From a virus: DNA of 43,051 nt. A program made the position numbers and the translations under genes. The first letter of the stretch is position 1. Each line of letters begins with the position of its first letter. Under the pieces are notes generated by a model. That model saw only the letters and a program-made list of their open reading frames with translations. It ran no database searches and was not told where the DNA came from. Shown here one piece after another: positions 541-43,023 of the stretch. Where the stretch lies: the IMG/VR virus record IMGVR_UViG_3300046675_000397, positions 1 to 43,051 of that record. The stretch is one strand, 5' to 3'.

Positions 541-894
541 TCATCCCACTCGCTTACAGCGCTCCAGACTCCGATGCGGTCTGTCGGCGGCCGCGAACCC
601 GCCGAAGTCTCCGCCGAACTCCTCAGCGGTCCGATCTCCCTTTGAGCCATTGCAGTCAGAGCAGGCGGCGACGAGGTTCTCTTTATCGTCGGTGCCGCCC
701 CTAGAGATCGGGTTCAGATGGTCGACTGCGGTGGCGGGGTTGCCGCAGTAGAAGCAGCGAAAGTGGTCGCGCTTCAGGACTTCGTCGCGGACCTTTCGCC
801 AGGCCCGGGTTGAGCCATTGCGGGTCTTGCCTTGGTGGTCCGGGCAGCGGATCTGGTCGGTGAGGGTGCCGCAGACAGTGCAGGGATAGAGCAC
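541..894 (-). CDS. HNH endonuclease, 117 aa
   Basis: Starts with GTG about ten bases after a GGAGG. The N-terminus has a Cys-x2-Cys ... Cys-x2-His cluster (residues 5-19). The core is a classic HNH nuclease: Cys-Phe-Tyr-Cys-Gly, then Val-Asp-His, Pro-Ile-Ser-Arg-Gly-Gly, Asn-Leu and Cys-x2-Cys-Asn-x-x-Lys. This metal-dependent DNA-nicking/cleaving fold is often encoded beside the terminase genes, where family members assist cos cleavage and packaging. Here it would lie just upstream of terS if the ends join. The packaging role is inferred from position; the nuclease fold is clear. Confidence 0.93.
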   Translation of the reverse strand: MLYPCTVCGTLTDQIRCPDHQGKTRNGSTRAWRKVRDEVLKRDHFRCFYCGNPATAVDHLNPISRGGTDDKENLVAACSDCNGSKGDRTAEEFGGDFGGFAAADRPHRSLERCKRVG

Positions 895-1226: not shown

Positions 1227-1300
1227 TGGCGCCGGCAGGATTCGAACCTGCGACCTCCGGGATATGAGCCCGGCGAGCTACCAGACTGCTCCACGGCGCT
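1227..1300 (-). tRNA. Initiator-type tRNA-fMet (CAT)
   Basis: The full cloverleaf folds: 7-bp acceptor stem with its first pair open, 4-bp D stem, 5-bp anticodon stem, loop CTCATAT, 5-bp T stem and TTCGAAT loop; 74 nt, CCA not encoded. All three bacterial initiator hallmarks are visible: a non-Watson-Crick 1:72 pair (A:C), an A11:T24 D-stem pair, and three consecutive G:C pairs at the base of the anticodon stem (GGG/CCC). An elongator tRNA-Met or tRNA-Ile2 would have a pyrimidine at position 11 and a paired position 1. It is transcribed with the early operon. Confidence 0.92.
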
Positions 1301-1465
1301 ATGAAGATTCTCCCGACGTCGAAGGCAGGGAGCTCGACGCCGGGCGGATCACTACAGGGAGGTAATAGCGGAGCCGCCTGCACACGGGGTACTGACAACC
1401 GTGCCGCGCCCATTTAGGGGCCAATGGCTGGCTCGACGGAATAATCGACCCTTCGTCGGACGGAA

Positions 1466-8682: not shown

Positions 8683-10107
8683 GTGAATCTCGATGGCTAC
8701 ATTCGAGTATCGCGGGTCGGCGGTCGCGAGGGAGAGCGCTTTATCTCGCCGGAGGATCAGCGGGAACAGATCGATCGCTGGGCGAAGCTGCGCGGAGTCT
8801 CCATCGCCAACTGGGAGACCGACCTTGATCAGACTGGCCAGGTGTTGAGCCGGCCCGGTCTTGATCGCATCCTCGAGCGGATCCGCACCGGTCAGACCGG
8901 CGGCCTGGTCGTCGCCTACATCGATCGCTTTTCCCGCGCCGGCGTCGCCGATGCACTGAAGCTGGTCGAGCAGATCGTCGAGGACGGGGGCACCTTCGCC
9001 GCGGTCGACCTCGGCCTTGACCCGACAACTCCCTTCGGCGAGTTCGGCCTGACGATCATGCTTGGCCTCTCGAGGATGCGAGGGCGCCAGATCGGGGACC
9101 GCTGGTATGGCTCCCGCAAGATGGCGGTCGACCGCGGCGTATTCGTCGGCGGCTTTGTGCCGGTCGGGCTGCGCAAGCGGGAGGACGGACGGCTCGAGCC
9201 CGATCCGACGGTGCGCCGTGATCTGATCGCCGAGCTCTTCGGGCGCCGGGCTGGCCGGGAATCCTGGTCGAAACTCGCGGCGTGGCTCTCGGCCGAGCTC
9301 GGTGACGAGGTCAGCATCCCGCGTGTGCGAGCGGTGATCGCCAACCGGGTCTACCTCGGCGAGGTGAACGGCGGCCAGGGGCTCGTCAACCGCTCGGCCC
9401 ACAAGCCCCTGGTCGATCGCGCTCTGTTCGAGCAGGCCAACTCCGTCCGCGGTGTCGTGCCGGCGAGAAGCGGCAGGGCTTCCGGTCTGCTGTCGGGCCT
9501 TCTGCGCTGCGCCGGCTGCCGCTACGCGATGAAGGCCTCGATGAACGCGGGTGCCGGCGGCCTCGAATACAGGTGCAAGGCGAATCGCCGCGAAACGACC
9601 GAGCGCTGTCCGTCGCCGTCGTCGGTCTCGGCGCACCTGATCGACGGGCTGGTGCTCGAGCAGTTCTGGGAGTGGATCCGACGAGCCCGGGCGACCCAGC
9701 TCGAGGGCTCGAAGGCGGTCGAGGAAGCTGAGGGGCAGCTGCTCGGCGCCGAGGCGGAGCTCGATGCTGTCTTGGACACGCGGCTCTCGGAGGCTCTCGG
9801 CAGCGATTCCGAGCGCTACCTCGAGCTCATCGCCGATCGCCAGGGCCTCGTCGACGCCGCCAAGGGCGATCTCATCGCAGCCCAGCGCGCCCAGGTCGCG
9901 CTCCCGGGCAGCGATGTCGCCGATATCTGGCCGGATCTCGATCTCCATGAGCGTCGTCGTCTCCTTGCCTCAGCCCTTGACTGCGTGTTTGTTCGCCGCG
10001 GCCGGGACCTTGCGAGGCGGACGCACCTTTGCTGGCGCGGTGAGGCGCCGGACCTTCCCCGAAGCGGAGCGCGCTGGACGCCGGTCCCATTCGACTTTCC
10101 AGCGTGA
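8683..10107 (+). CDS. int: Large serine recombinase (site-specific integrase), 474 aa
   Basis: GTG start. The N-terminal resolvase domain begins Tyr-Ile-Arg-Val-Ser with the nucleophilic Ser near residue 10, and continues through the Tyr-x-Asp-Arg-Phe-Ser-Arg segment (~88) and the long catalytic helix. The recombinase domain follows (~165-260). A zinc ribbon (Cys-x2-Cys ... Cys ... Cys, ~285-315) comes next, then a coiled coil (~345-400) and the C-terminal Trp-Arg-Gly-Glu-Ala-Pro segment. It catalyses attP x attB integration through a covalent phosphoserine. It is on the opposite strand to both flanking operons. The tail overlaps a small antisense gene. Confidence 0.96.
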   Translation: MNLDGYIRVSRVGGREGERFISPEDQREQIDRWAKLRGVSIANWETDLDQTGQVLSRPGLDRILERIRTGQTGGLVVAYIDRFSRAGVADALKLVEQIVEDGGTFAAVDLGLDPTTPFGEFGLTIMLGLSRMRGRQIGDRWYGSRKMAVDRGVFVGGFVPVGLRKREDGRLEPDPTVRRDLIAELFGRRAGRESWSKLAAWLSAELGDEVSIPRVRAVIANRVYLGEVNGGQGLVNRSAHKPLVDRALFEQANSVRGVVPARSGRASGLLSGLLRCAGCRYAMKASMNAGAGGLEYRCKANRRETTERCPSPSSVSAHLIDGLVLEQFWEWIRRARATQLEGSKAVEEAEGQLLGAEAELDAVLDTRLSEALGSDSERYLELIADRQGLVDAAKGDLIAAQRAQVALPGSDVADIWPDLDLHERRRLLASALDCVFVRRGRDLARRTHLCWRGEAPDLPRSGARWTPVPFDFPA

Positions 10108-10600: not shown

Positions 10601-11397
10601 GCAGTCGCCCCTGCAGGAACGGGAAGGGCTTCCAACTCGGCAATGAGGCGGTCAGCCTCTCGGTCGAACGCCGCCGACCGCGCCGCCGACCGCGCCGACT
10701 CCGCCGCCGACCGCGCCGACTCCGCCGCCGACCGCGCCGACCGCGCCGCCGACCGCGCCGACTCCGCCGCCGACCGCGCCGACCGCGCCGCCGACCGCGC
10801 CGCCGACTCCGCCGCCGACTCCGCCGCCGACCGCGCCGCCGACCACGCCGACCGCGCCGCCGACTCCGCCGCCGACTCCGCCGCCGACCGCGCCGCCGAA
10901 ACGTTTTGCTTACCTTCAAGCGCCGCGATGACCTTCTCGATGGCGGCGACCACCTCACCTCGAATCGACTCTGGCCACTGACCGCTGAGGGGCAAGCACT
11001 CCTCCTTCAGCCGGCAAATGGCGAGGCGGTCGGCCAAGCCGTCGAAGTCGGCCCCGACCGGGATCGCCTCGGCGAAGCGGCGGGGCCACTCGGCTGCTTT
11101 CTCCTTCGGCAGCCCCTCGAAGATCTTGTCCTCCAGGTGGGCGAGCCAGGTGGGGAGGCCGAACAGCTCGGGGTAGAGCGCATGAAGGTCGTCCGTCGTC
11201 CGCTGCTCCACTGTCGCGGCCGAGTGGACTGAGCAGCCCACTGCACACCGTTCGTAGTGGCCGTTGGCCTTGCGGCCGTAGGTGCCCTGCACGATCGCGT
11301 CGGCTTTCTCGTGGGCGCCGATGTTCGCCAGGAGCACGTCCTTGGTGGGCTGCTCGCCGTGGTAGGCGCGCAGAGGTTCGGTTGTCGTCTCGGGCAT
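10597..11397 (-). CDS. Phage protein of unknown function with Ala/Ser helical repeats, 266 aa
   Basis: The N-terminal ~165 residues form a conserved-looking globular part: Tyr-Glu-Arg-Cys-Ala-Val-Gly-Cys-x-Val-His-Ser, then Pro-x-Trp-Leu-Ala-x-Leu-Glu-Asp-x-Ile-Phe-Glu-Gly-Leu and a Trp-Pro-x-x-Phe segment. Residues ~167-245 are Ser-Ala-Ala-[Arg/Glu] units, shifting to Ser-Ala-Ala-Glu-Ser-Ala-Arg heptads, then a short closing helix. I have seen this combination in phages of distant hosts; its role is unknown. The repeat should form one long charged alanine helix, probably a coiled coil. Confidence 0.82.
   Translation of the reverse strand: MPETTTEPLRAYHGEQPTKDVLLANIGAHEKADAIVQGTYGRKANGHYERCAVGCSVHSAATVEQRTTDDLHALYPELFGLPTWLAHLEDKIFEGLPKEKAAEWPRRFAEAIPVGADFDGLADRLAICRLKEECLPLSGQWPESIRGEVVAAIEKVIAALEGKQNVSAARSAAESAAESAARSAWSAARSAAESAAESAARSAARSARSAAESARSAARSARSAAESARSAAESARSAARSAAFDREADRLIAELEALPVPAGATA
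10669..10901 (-). repeat. GCC-rich 12/9-bp tandem repeat encoding Ser-Ala-Ala-[Arg/Glu]
   Basis: About 230 bp built from 12-base (four-codon) and 9-base (three-codon) units in phase with the reading frame, differing mainly at the Arg/Glu codon. Such an array can change length by slippage without breaking the frame. Confidence 0.85.
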
Positions 11398-12337: not shown

Positions 12338-13203
12338 GCGGCCGGCTCCATGACCTCGTCGTAGCGGGCGAACTTCGATCCGCCGCCGCCGGGTGCGTCC
12401 CCGTTGCTGGCCTGCATGCAGCGCTCGAACTGCGCGGCGCTGCCGTAGATGACCTCTGGCCCGGGGTGACCCGACCACCAGGGCGAGCGGAAGGTGGCGG
12501 CGATGATGGCGCGGTGGGCCTCGGCAGAGAGCCCGGCGTGTTCGCGGATCCGGCCGACGATCGGGGTGAGGTGGGCGCCGACGGTGTAGGTCGTCCGCGC
12601 CGCCTGGTTGAAGGCCTCGATGATCGCCGTCGCGGTCGAGTGCTCGGAATCGGTGACCGGCTTTCGGTTGACCCGGGGACGCGCACTAGTCTGTGTTGAC
12701 GTATCCCTTGACGTATCCCCTATAGAGACCGAGTCCGAATGTTCGGACCCTTTCTGTCCGGATCCTCGGACCCTTTGTTTTCGTGCCTGGTCCGAGCTCT
12801 CGGACCCTTTCGATTTGGCATCAGTCCGAATGTTCGGACCCTTTCTGTCCGGATCCTCGGACCCTTTGTTTTCGTGCCTGGTCCGAGCTCTCGGACCCTT
12901 TCTCATCCGCTGTTCAGCCTCGGAAACGTCGCCGTCGAGGCCCGGGAGTTTCAGCCAACGGAGGCTCGGCTTGCCCCGGCCGCCGCCGCCCTCGAGAATG
13001 GCCAGTTGGCCCGTCTTCTCGATCTCGCGGAGGACTTCGAAGATCGTCGCGCGCTTCATCCGGGTCTTCCTCATCAGCTCCTTGATCCCGGACCAGGCGA
13101 TCCCATGTTCGTCGGCGCGATTGGCGAGGGCAAGCATCGTCACCCGCTGGCGCTGGGTGCCCTCGAAGTACTTCCAGACGGCGTTGTAGGCCTCAACGCT
13201 CAC
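12334..13203 (-). CDS. Replication initiator (O-like, N-terminal winged helix), 289 aa
   Basis: GTG 13203 overlaps the upstream stop (GTGA). Residues ~1-85 are a winged-helix domain typical of phage initiators (Arg-Gln-Arg-Val-Thr-Met-Leu-Ala-Leu-Ala, then Ile-x-Glu-Leu-x-x-x-Thr and a recognition helix). Residues ~100-165 are a hydrophilic linker encoded by a 91-bp duplication that carries the six iterons. The C-terminal ~100 residues are helical with Trp-Trp-Ser-Gly-His, resembling replisome organiser C-terminal domains that contact the loader. It should bind the iterons in its own gene. Confidence 0.85.
   Translation of the reverse strand: MSVEAYNAVWKYFEGTQRQRVTMLALANRADEHGIAWSGIKELMRKTRMKRATIFEVLREIEKTGQLAILEGGGGRGKPSLRWLKLPGLDGDVSEAEQRMRKGPRARTRHENKGSEDPDRKGPNIRTDAKSKGSESSDQARKQRVRGSGQKGSEHSDSVSIGDTSRDTSTQTSARPRVNRKPVTDSEHSTATAIIEAFNQAARTTYTVGAHLTPIVGRIREHAGLSAEAHRAIIAATFRSPWWSGHPGPEVIYGSAAQFERCMQASNGDAPGGGGSKFARYDEVMEPAA
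12696..12719. repeat. Two tandem 12-bp repeats TTGACGTATCCC next to the iterons
   Basis: Exact copies at 12696-12707 and 12708-12719, 13 bp from the first iteron. They are within the initiator coding region. They may be a second class of origin site, an unwinding/boundary element or a host-factor site. Confidence 0.7.
12733..12901. repeat. Candidate replication origin: six 21-bp iterons
   Basis: Copies start at 12733, 12756, 12790, 12824, 12847 and 12881. Each has G, then TCCGA or TCCGG, four variable bases, TCGGA and CCCTTT, so each contains an internal inverted repeat. Starts are 23, 34, 34, 23 and 34 bp apart. The set arose by duplication of an 80-bp block (12732-12811 and 12823-12902). 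Iterons inside the initiator gene are the lambda O plan. Confidence 0.82.
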
Positions 13204-14120: not shown

Positions 14121-14380
14121 TCGCTTCCGCCTCCGTTCAGCGGCCAGATCTCAGTGGGCAGCCTGTCGAAGACTCGGGCGATCGCGAACTGGGTCCGAGG
14201 GAGGGGAACGGTGCGGCCCTCCTCGGCGTCGCGGATCGTCTTGCCGCTAACTCCGGCTTGTATTCCGAGCTCGTTGGGGGAGAGGCCCGCGTTGATGCGA
14301 AGCTTGACCAAGGTCAGATTCCGCGGCCGCGGCCGCCGCGAGCGGATCTTCGAAACGCGGGTGACGGTTGGGGTCGTCAC
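14117..14380 (-). CDS. HTH (XRE/Cro-like) regulator, first gene of the leftward lytic operon, 87 aa
   Basis: GTG at 14380 is preferred over an upstream ATG (14437) because a good promoter with its -10 at 14388-14393 places the transcript start at about 14381, right at this codon. Residues ~15-25 are basic. The HTH follows: Leu-Thr-Leu-Val-Lys-Leu-Arg-x-x-Ala-Gly-Leu-Ser-x-Asn-Glu-Leu, then Gly-Val-Ser-x-Lys-Thr-Ile-Arg-x-Ala-Glu-Glu-Gly. By position, divergent from the repressor, this is the Cro-equivalent. Confidence 0.82.
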   Translation of the reverse strand: MTTPTVTRVSKIRSRRPRPRNLTLVKLRINAGLSPNELGIQAGVSGKTIRDAEEGRTVPLPRTQFAIARVFDRLPTEIWPLNGGGSE

Positions 14381-14387
14381 TTCCCGA

Positions 14388-14416
14388 AACGTAACACAGA
14401 CTCCCGTTAGATGCAA
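14388..14416 (-). promoter_or_regulatory. Leftward sigma-70-type promoter of the Cro-like operon
   Basis: On the minus strand: -35 TTGCAT (14411-14416), 17-base spacer, -10 TACGTT (14388-14393) preceded by TG-T, an extended -10. The start point would be at about 14381, giving a leaderless mRNA beginning at the GTG of the Cro-like gene. Confidence 0.65.
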
Positions 14417-14430
14417 GCAGTACCCGCTAG
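14403..14430. promoter_or_regulatory. Candidate operator pair CCCGTTAG / CCCGCTAG
   Basis: Near-identical octamers at 14403-14410 and 14423-14430, exactly 20 bp apart (about two helical turns). They overlap the spacer and upstream edge of the leftward promoter and lie just before the repressor start. This is where repressor and Cro would compete. Confidence 0.5.
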
Positions 14431-14438
14431 CCCCCAAA

Positions 14439-14774
14439 ATGGGTGTTTATGGTTGCCTCGTGGACGAGCTGGTGAAGCGCATTCGCGCAGCACGGGCCTT
14501 CGCGCAGCTCTCGCAGCCAGGTGTAGCCGAGCGGCTTGAGATGAGCGATAAGACCTACAAGCTGATCGAGCTCGGGCAGCGCAGGCCGAAGCGGTCAGAG
14601 CTTTTGGCGATCGCGGAGATCTGCACCGTCCCGATGTGGTTCCTCGAGGGCGGCTGGGAGGGCTGGCGCTCTACCGAATCAGGCGAAGGTGGCGAGCCCG
14701 GCGACCTCCGCCCGCGGAATCTGATCCCCCCGGAGGATCAAGGTGGCGCTGCAAATGAAGCCGAGCAAGCCTGA
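14439..14774 (+). CDS. Repressor-like HTH protein (lysogeny side of the switch), 111 aa
   Basis: ATG 14439 (or in-frame GTG 14460; neither has a ribosome binding site, so a leaderless message is possible). The HTH covers ~8-60: Val-Lys-Arg-Ile-Arg-x-Ala-Arg-x-x-Ala-x-Leu-Ser-Gln, Val-Ala-x-Arg-Leu-x-Met-Ser-x-Lys-Thr-Tyr-Lys-x-Ile-Glu-x-Gly. A Trp-rich then acidic/Gly tail follows. There is no Ser-Lys LexA-type protease domain, so it would not be inactivated by RecA cleavage like lambda CI. Transcribed divergently from the Cro-like genes. Confidence 0.8.
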   Translation: MGVYGCLVDELVKRIRAARAFAQLSQPGVAERLEMSDKTYKLIELGQRRPKRSELLAIAEICTVPMWFLEGGWEGWRSTESGEGGEPGDLRPRNLIPPEDQGGAANEAEQA

Positions 14775-41219: not shown

Positions 41220-42629
41220 CTAGAGGAAGACGGCTTTCTTCGACTGCGGCTTGGTCCCGACCAGCGTGGAGTGGGCCATCGCCAGCGCGATCGCGCCGTC
41301 GATCGGCGCCCGCTTCCGTTTGCCCTTGACGAACTTCCAGCGCTCGCCCTCCTGCTTCGCCGAGGCGGCGAGAACGTGGGCGTTCAAGGTCGGGTCATCG
41401 GGGTGGGTGATGCGCTTCTCGCTGATCGCCTCCGAGAGACGCTGCGCCGCCAGTTGCATCGGCGTCGTCTTCTGAGAATGGATGGCGGGCTCGACGCCGA
41501 GCTCATCCTCGATCGTCTGCGCCAACTGCTCGCCGCCGGCCTCCGGGTCGAGCACGAAGACGACCTCCTCGAAGGATCGCGCCATCTCCTGGATCGGCTC
41601 CCAGATGCGCTCGAAGGGAGTCGCGGTGCCGTCGCGGGGAGGCACGACGATCACCGGCTCACCGACGATGGCTAGCTCGGAGCCATCGGCCTTCCAGACG
41701 GGGACGATCGCGGTTGTGTCCCACTTCCAGCCCAGGTCGATGCCGATGTAGACGCCCTTGGCCTCAGGGGGGATCGTCTCCTCGCCGGCGCAGGCTCGCC
41801 ACTCGGTCTCTGAGATCGCGGAATCCTCGCCGGAGAGCCAGACCCCGCAGGCGAAGCGTCCCCACTGCCACGGCTTCATCGACGGCGAGCGGTGAAGATC
41901 GGTCAGCGCCTTGATCGTGTGCCAGGGCGCTGGGTTCGCCTGCTTGACGATCCGCATGTTCGAGCGATCCTGATCTGGGTCAAGTGCCCACTCGTGCATC
42001 GCGAAGTTGTCGGTGCGGACGTAGCGATAGGCGCCCTTGCGAATCAGGCCGGGGAGCGCGTGTGCGGCGGTCCTCAGCTCGCCCAGAGGTGATGTCTCAT
42101 CATCGCCGGCGGTGGAGATCGTGACCATCCGGCCATTGCGGGGCCCCAGCCCATCGCGGAAGATCCCGTAGAGGTCTGCCGACTTGTGGCGGTGGAGCTC
42201 ATCCACCAGGGCGAGCGTCGGGATCACGCCATCTGCCGTATCGACGTCCGAGGCGAGAATCCGCACTCTGCCTCCGAGCTGGTTGTGAACGATCTCGCGC
42301 TGTTTGACCTGGAGGCGCTGCTGCAGTGAAGGCGATCGGCGGATGAAGCCCTGCGCCTGGCGCAGCATGATCGAAGCCTGGTCCCGCGATGCCGCGGCGA
42401 TCACGCACTCGGCATCGGGCGTTGTGCAGAGATGGAAGAGGGCCAGCGCGGCGAGCAGGGTGCTCTTGCCGTTCTTCTTCGAGATCAGGATCAGCGTCTC
42501 GCGCCGTCCTCCAAACAGGTCGCCCAGCATCTTGCGCTGGAAGGGGTAGAGCTTGAGTGGCTTCCCATCCTCCCGAGTTAGGGCCTGCTTGCAGAAGTCG
42601 GCGAAAAGGTCAAGCTCTTGCACCGACAC
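41220..42629 (-). CDS. Terminase large subunit, 469 aa
   Basis: GTG 42629 (or in-frame GTG 42623) overlapping terS by about 20 bases. ATPase: Walker A-like Ser-Lys-Lys-Asn-Gly-Lys-Ser-Thr (~50-57), Walker B Thr-Leu-Ala-Leu-Val-Asp143-Glu144-Leu-His, then Ser-Thr-Ala-Gly motif III. Nuclease: Tyr-Ile-Gly-Ile-Asp-Leu-Gly (~280), Val-Leu-Asp-Pro-Glu (~345) and a late Asp in Ile-Asp-Gly-Ala-Ile-Ala. Motor that translocates and cuts DNA. Confidence 0.96.
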   Translation of the reverse strand: MSVQELDLFADFCKQALTREDGKPLKLYPFQRKMLGDLFGGRRETLILISKKNGKSTLLAALALFHLCTTPDAECVIAAASRDQASIMLRQAQGFIRRSPSLQQRLQVKQREIVHNQLGGRVRILASDVDTADGVIPTLALVDELHRHKSADLYGIFRDGLGPRNGRMVTISTAGDDETSPLGELRTAAHALPGLIRKGAYRYVRTDNFAMHEWALDPDQDRSNMRIVKQANPAPWHTIKALTDLHRSPSMKPWQWGRFACGVWLSGEDSAISETEWRACAGEETIPPEAKGVYIGIDLGWKWDTTAIVPVWKADGSELAIVGEPVIVVPPRDGTATPFERIWEPIQEMARSFEEVVFVLDPEAGGEQLAQTIEDELGVEPAIHSQKTTPMQLAAQRLSEAISEKRITHPDDPTLNAHVLAASAKQEGERWKFVKGKRKRAPIDGAIALAMAHSTLVGTKPQSKKAVFL

Positions 42630-43023
42630 GCCTGGCCGCCAGCTCGTCCATCTTCCCTAGCGGGTCGGCGGGCTTCTTCTCTTCGCCCTCGCCGCCCCCC
42701 TTCTTGCGGTAGGTGTCGGTCCAGACCTTCATCGCTGGAACCGACCCGTTGCGGATGGCTCGCGAGAGGTGAAGCTGGACCTCCTCATCATCCACCGGCT
42801 CGTCGGAGTCGGGGGCGTCTCGCGCTTCCCGGATGAAGTCGATCGCGAAGGCGAAGTTCGCATAGGGAGAGTCGGGGTTCTTGCGCCCCTTGGTCAACCA
42901 GCCCTTCACGGTGCGTTCGGAGATGTCGTTTTCGCGACAGGCGTCCGCAAGCGAGGCACCGGCTTTCTGAGCAGCCACGATCCGGGGCGCTAGGTGGTCG
43001 AACTGGGTGCGTCCCTTGCCCAC
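42610..43023 (-). CDS. Terminase small subunit, 137 aa
   Basis: GTG 43023. The N-terminal HTH has Ile-Val-Ala-Ala-Gln-Lys-Ala-Gly-Ala-Ser-Leu, Asp-Ala-Cys-Arg-Glu-Asn-Asp-Ile-Ser-Glu-Arg-Thr-Val-Lys-Gly-Trp-Leu, typical of terS DNA recognition. The middle is helical (oligomerisation) and the C-terminus Lys/Glu-rich. It recognises the packaging site and loads TerL. Confidence 0.9.
   Translation of the reverse strand: MGKGRTQFDHLAPRIVAAQKAGASLADACRENDISERTVKGWLTKGRKNPDSPYANFAFAIDFIREARDAPDSDEPVDDEEVQLHLSRAIRNGSVPAMKVWTDTYRKKGGGEGEEKKPADPLGKMDELAARRVGARA

Follow-up and report, generated by a model that had tools for sequence, protein, structure and literature searches.

An initiator-type tRNA-Met gene with an A1×C72 mismatch in an actinophage-like virus record

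Do phages seize control of translation initiation by means of a tRNA of their own? The literature treats phage tRNAs as elongators, although genes of the initiator type, labelled tRNA-Met, are in fact found on many phages. The question is raised here by one such gene in a 43,051-bp IMG/VR virus record, which was analysed over its whole length (hereafter the window). In a preliminary description the gene was read as an initiator-type tRNA-fMet with complete cloverleaf, its strand left unstated. The single tRNA that ARAGORN reports in the window is tRNA-Met(cat) at 1226-1301 on the minus strand, and Rfam model RF00005 is matched in full from 1300 to 1227 on the same strand (64.7 bits, E 6.1e-12); an ARAGORN run at low threshold gave noise only and was left unused. 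The tRNA reads, 5′ to 3′, AGCGCCG-TG-GAGC-AGTCTGGTA-GCTC-G-CCGGG-CTCATAT-CCCGG-AGGTC-GCAGG-TTCGAAT-CCTGC-CGGCGCC-A, followed by TAT. When it was parsed into canonical positions, 1:72 was found to be an unpaired A×C, 11:24 an A:U pair and 29-31/39-41 GGG/CCC around the anticodon CAU; position 54 is T, position 73 is A, CCA is not encoded, and the anticodon loop CTCATAT places T at position 38 (U38). The initiator call is thus upheld, and the minus strand is added to it (Table 1).

Table 1. Positions of the tRNA gene, its neighbours and other features of the window
Feature	Positions	Strand	Remarks
125-aa phage ORF	86..463	-	kept beside HNH/terS in G004, G005, G008
HNH endonuclease	541..894	-	downstream of tRNA; precedes terS/terL in relatives
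Initiator-type tRNA-Met(CAT) gene	1227..1300	-	A1×C72, A11:U24, GGG/CCC, U38, no encoded CCA; ARAGORN, Rfam
Leader hairpin, 11-bp stem	1312..1344	-	11 nt upstream of base 1; alignment and fold, covarying pair in G408
205-aa phage ORF	1466..2083	-	upstream of tRNA; homologue beside helicase in G009
Large serine recombinase (integrase)	8683..10107	+	resolvase and zinc-ribbon domains; 74-75% identical to that of G408
HTH repressor-like protein	14154..14774	+	92% identical to G408 over 121 aa
Terminase large subunit (terL)	41220..42629	-	PHROG/Pfam, gene order in relatives
Terminase small subunit (terS)	42610..43023	-	PHROG/Pfam, gene order in relatives

Both ARAGORN and Rfam are blind to the classes of Met tRNA, and the common label tRNA-Met conceals the initiator type of many phage genes, so that the gene might be thought an elongator Met or Ile2 tRNA, or else a host initiator on a chromosomal fragment. 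Such a reading is extremely improbable. Elongator Met or Ile2 identity is ruled out by three initiator features that are all present in the tRNA, namely the unpaired 1:72, the three G:C pairs beside CAU, and A11:U24. The pairs G2:C71, C3:G70 and G4:C69, which are formylation determinants in E. coli tRNA-fMet, are also found. An origin in the host chromosome is rejected, since phage genes lie on both sides of the tRNA in synteny with related phages, the record is a virus record, and structural, lysis and replication genes of a phage are encoded in the window; the earlier statement that the gene is phage-borne therefore stands.

The PHROG and Pfam matches in the window include terminase, portal, major head protein, tail sheath, baseplate and tape measure, as well as endolysin, replication initiator, DnaC-like loader, helicase, methyltransferase and sigma-factor-like genes. 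The best portal matches all belong to actinophages (Thermobifida, Streptomyces, Arthrobacter) and those of the tail sheath to Arthrobacter, Gordonia and Brevibacterium phages, and the phage is a myovirus with an actinophage-like portal. In a portal-based search of bacterial genomes for prophage relatives none was found to encode one, and phage records contained no near-identical DNA for the first 25 kb of the window. In related phages terS and terL come immediately after the HNH gene and the 125-aa ORF. By this gene order the tRNA closes one operon at its 3′ end, and the packaging genes follow just downstream; a search for a consensus promoter near the tRNA gene found none, though it may miss actinobacterial promoters. 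The same slot holds a tRNA-Gln(CTG) in G005, the sole close relative with any tRNA, and no tRNA was found in the other close relatives that cover the region, so the initiator tRNA is dispensable in the clade.

The preliminary description had also regarded initiator tRNA genes on phages as uncommon. The gene of the window is indeed phage-borne, but when the window tRNA with its flanks was used as query, 273 INPHARED records were found to contain a similar stretch, 190 of them from Mycobacterium phages. The two genes read among these (DrPhinkDaddy and Bread, both Bixzunavirus) are true initiators with A1×C72, A11:U24 and GGG/CCC that are labelled only tRNA-Met. Initiator-type genes were also found on Micromonospora phage pMLP1, Stenotrophomonas phage QDWS359 (annotated as tRNA-fMet) and Acinetobacter phage MD-2021a, and Clavibacter phage CN1A carries at 1994-2070, about 45 bases downstream of its annotated tRNA-Trp, an unannotated initiator-like tRNA with T1:A72, AGG/CCT and U38. 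In IMG/VR a 20-base string of the initiator D arm matched at least 118 stretches, prophage and host flank among them. Initiators carried by phages thus often go unlabelled and are not very rare. According to one survey, the enteric phages it examined with respect to S. flexneri VapC generally avoid tRNA-fMet (PMC10264068). The Bixzunavirus (cluster C) tRNA, about 81% identical to that of the window, shares with it the phage location, the A1×C72, A11:U24 and GGG/CCC features, the CCGGG/CCCGG anticodon stem and the lack of an encoded CCA; however, it lies in a long tRNA array of a phage of about 155 kb and has A38 in both genes sampled, whereas the window holds a solitary gene with U38 in a 43-kb phage.

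How does such a tRNA differ from the initiators of the presumptive hosts? The D arm, anticodon stem and T arm of chromosomal actinobacterial tRNA-fMet are nearly identical to those of the window tRNA, but the actinobacterial initiators among the matches listed all have A38 and begin with C or T, in place of U38 and A1. A comparison of bases 1, 72, 11, 24 and 54 with actinobacterial initiators had been suggested earlier; the listed ones differ from the window tRNA at base 1. The full-length initiator pattern with A1 and C72 was found on 24 IMG/VR contigs and in 0 of 396 actinobacterial genomes, although a looser pattern, in which position 1 may be A, C or T, has matches in 292 of these genomes, most of them with a single copy. 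Among 59 distinct IMG/VR initiators that form an unselected set, A1:C72 occurs five times and the paired A1:T72 once. Given the 24 contigs against none of the genomes, A1×C72 looks like a virus-side signature relative to Actinomycetota, the phylum surveyed. What is new here is the occurrence of A1×C72 with an otherwise standard initiator on viral contigs, unseen in the 396 sampled actinobacterial genomes. The mismatch, often found on phage initiators, thereby offers a simple sequence test for sorting them.

The 24 distinct viral A1×C72 genes, the window included, keep standard pairs everywhere except at 1:72. Their alignment gives 71 compensatory cells against a shuffle mean of 16.6, with none of 500 shuffles as high; the search pattern fixed the D arm (including A11:U24), GGG/CCC and 1:72, so that constancy in these parts follows by construction and the other stems alone are informative. 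G2:C71 is present in 23 of the 24 genes, C3:G70 in all and G4:C69 in 18. The closest homologue lies in a 38.6-kb IMG/VR record, IMGVR_UViG_3300046517_002079 (G408), where 147 bp of the tRNA region are 84% identical to the window; relative to the window tRNA it has double changes at 6:67, 29:41 and 51:63 and it keeps A1×C72. These compensatory stem changes around a retained mismatch indicate that the tRNA gene is under selection.

No phage other than G408 was found to have a close integrase, and a further search for integrase relatives by alignment returned G408 alone again. The G408 tRNA likewise lies upstream of HNH/terL, in a phage with integrase and repressor of the types seen in the window; it differs in A38, in A:U at 29:41 and in a D loop that is one base shorter. 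A 62-nt leader is common to both tRNAs; its hairpin, which was found in G408 and in none of the other loci compared, is a candidate operator, processing or leader element. The endolysins of the two phages are 96% identical, and a few small genes are also common, whereas TerL is only 30% identical and the head module is unrelated. The tRNA thus appears as a conserved unit that follows the lysogeny and lysis modules and not the head module; this association may be read from two phages only, and their pairing leaves a functional link unproven.

The complete fold, the initiator hallmarks, the phage location and the compensatory conservation together make a functional phage initiator tRNA gene the best explanation, and it is rather probable that the gene serves, in the course of the phage life cycle, as a source of initiator tRNA or as a reserve for that of the host. 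The tRNA would be transcribed from the phage, receive its CCA from a host enzyme, be charged by host MetRS and formylated by host Fmt, and its fMet-tRNA would then be used by IF2 at the ribosomal P site. In that way it may supplement the host initiator, often single-copy in the surveyed actinobacteria, when high initiation capacity is needed, or alternatively fill in when infection depletes the host initiator pool; A1×C72 would be a viral way to keep 1:72 open, as an initiator requires. Extra initiation capacity, proposed already in the preliminary description, is plausible, but the accompanying idea of host takeover left out of account the serine integrase and the repressor-like gene, which indicate that the phage is probably temperate. 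Genes of this general kind are already known; what makes the present one interesting is its viral signature at 1:72, together with a link to lysogeny that can be tested.

Other explanations for its presence have to be set against this function. It might be a passive passenger without a role, caught from a host through imprecise excision or as the remnant of an old attachment site; tRNA genes are common attachment sites, and the gene is missing from several close relatives. The intact fold and the compensatory evolution argue against neutral drift or recent capture, as does a mismatch that is absent from the 396 sampled actinobacterial genomes, and the passenger reading seems highly improbable. 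Only slightly less improbable is a nuclease-resistant replacement, in which U38 removes a bond cut by VapC-type toxins, so that the tRNA of the phage would withstand the anticodon nucleases of the host. The cut made by enteric VapC in tRNA-fMet falls between A38 and C39, as quoted in PMC4105405, loop-based escape of phage tRNAs has been proposed in general (PMC10264068), and Clavibacter phage CN1A has U38 as well. A scan that took a single genome from each species (84,980 species) found U38 with standard initiator arms on only three contigs, from a Curtobacterium plasmid, a phage of Actinomadura and a Subtercola MAG, so that U38 is very rare in cells and in two of the three lies on a mobile element. 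Yet A38 is found in the G408 tRNA and in all 23 other aligned viral A1×C72 genes, and the Subtercola U38 belongs to a seemingly chromosomal initiator. M. tuberculosis is named, without detail, among the cases of tRNA-fMet-cutting toxins (PMC12321070), and no actinobacterial toxin of this kind is confirmed in the literature consulted. U38 is therefore rejected both as a phage-wide escape mark and as a strictly mobile trait; it is rare, leans towards mobile elements and is not conserved among viral initiators. Of the VapC escape suggested earlier, the fit of U38 to the enteric cleavage site remains, and the lack of conservation suggests that such escape would be at most a local adaptation.

The main rival reading is a tRNA-dependent lysogeny, in which a host initiator gene would be disrupted by phage insertion through the serine integrase, or put out of action in another way, and the essential tRNA would then be provided by the phage copy. 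The principle is established for temperate actinophages that encode, like the phage of the window, both a tRNA and an integrase (PMC10865867). In its favour are also the serine integrase and repressor-like gene of the phage, and the fact that G408 shares with the window the integrase, repressor, endolysin and initiator tRNA with leader, and not the head genes. The comparison covers, however, two phages only, with other modules such as the endolysin in common too. The known cases concern tyrosine integrases whose attB overlaps the cognate host tRNA, with tRNA-Lys, tRNA-Leu and tRNA-Ile2, and the table of that report holds no initiator-type phage tRNA (PMC10865867); the window has a serine recombinase in this place and no match to Phage_integrase (PF00589). 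An attP resembling the tRNA was sought in the integrase flanks and not found, though serine integrase att sites need little sequence. Moreover, an integrase of 50% identity is located on an element that looks conjugative; the flanks that were examined contain no initiator tRNA, and the genome's own initiator is intact. The Bixzunavirus phages, which are lytic, carry A1×C72 initiators as well. A lysogeny of this type is thus unlikely for the window phage, and it is a shade more doubtful that phages keep their own A1×C72 initiator class for a dedicated purpose, e.g., to replace a host initiator lost or silenced in serine-integrase lysogeny. If true, tRNA-dependent lysogeny would here for the first time combine an initiator tRNA with a serine integrase.

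Some further observations concern the three U38 contigs. The Curtobacterium pusillum plasmid pCPAA3 (567 kb) has at least 19 tRNA genes in 8 kb, the U38 initiator among them, and the chromosomal copy has A38. The Actinomadura sp. KC216 phage contig of 37.8 kb (also IMG/VR 2866649352_000006) holds an initiator with A1×C72, U38 and one extra T-stem base; in the 9.1-Mb draft no other initiator was found with up to three mismatches, which could be due to assembly loss or to a disrupted host gene. In the Subtercola MAG the only initiator of the contig has U38, and the adjoining UPF0182 and PDZ-Lon protease genes give the contig a chromosomal look; if the MAG is right, U38 would be compatible with essential initiator function.

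Two repeat regions were also seen in the window. Dense 9/12-base repeats (CGCCGACCG...) at 10606-10931 lie within an ORF and constitute a low-complexity coding repeat, and the replication initiator gene contains, at 12732-12902, short inverted repeats (TCCGAANNTTCGGACC-like) arranged as two exact direct repeats of 80 bp, which are likely an origin of the lambda O type.
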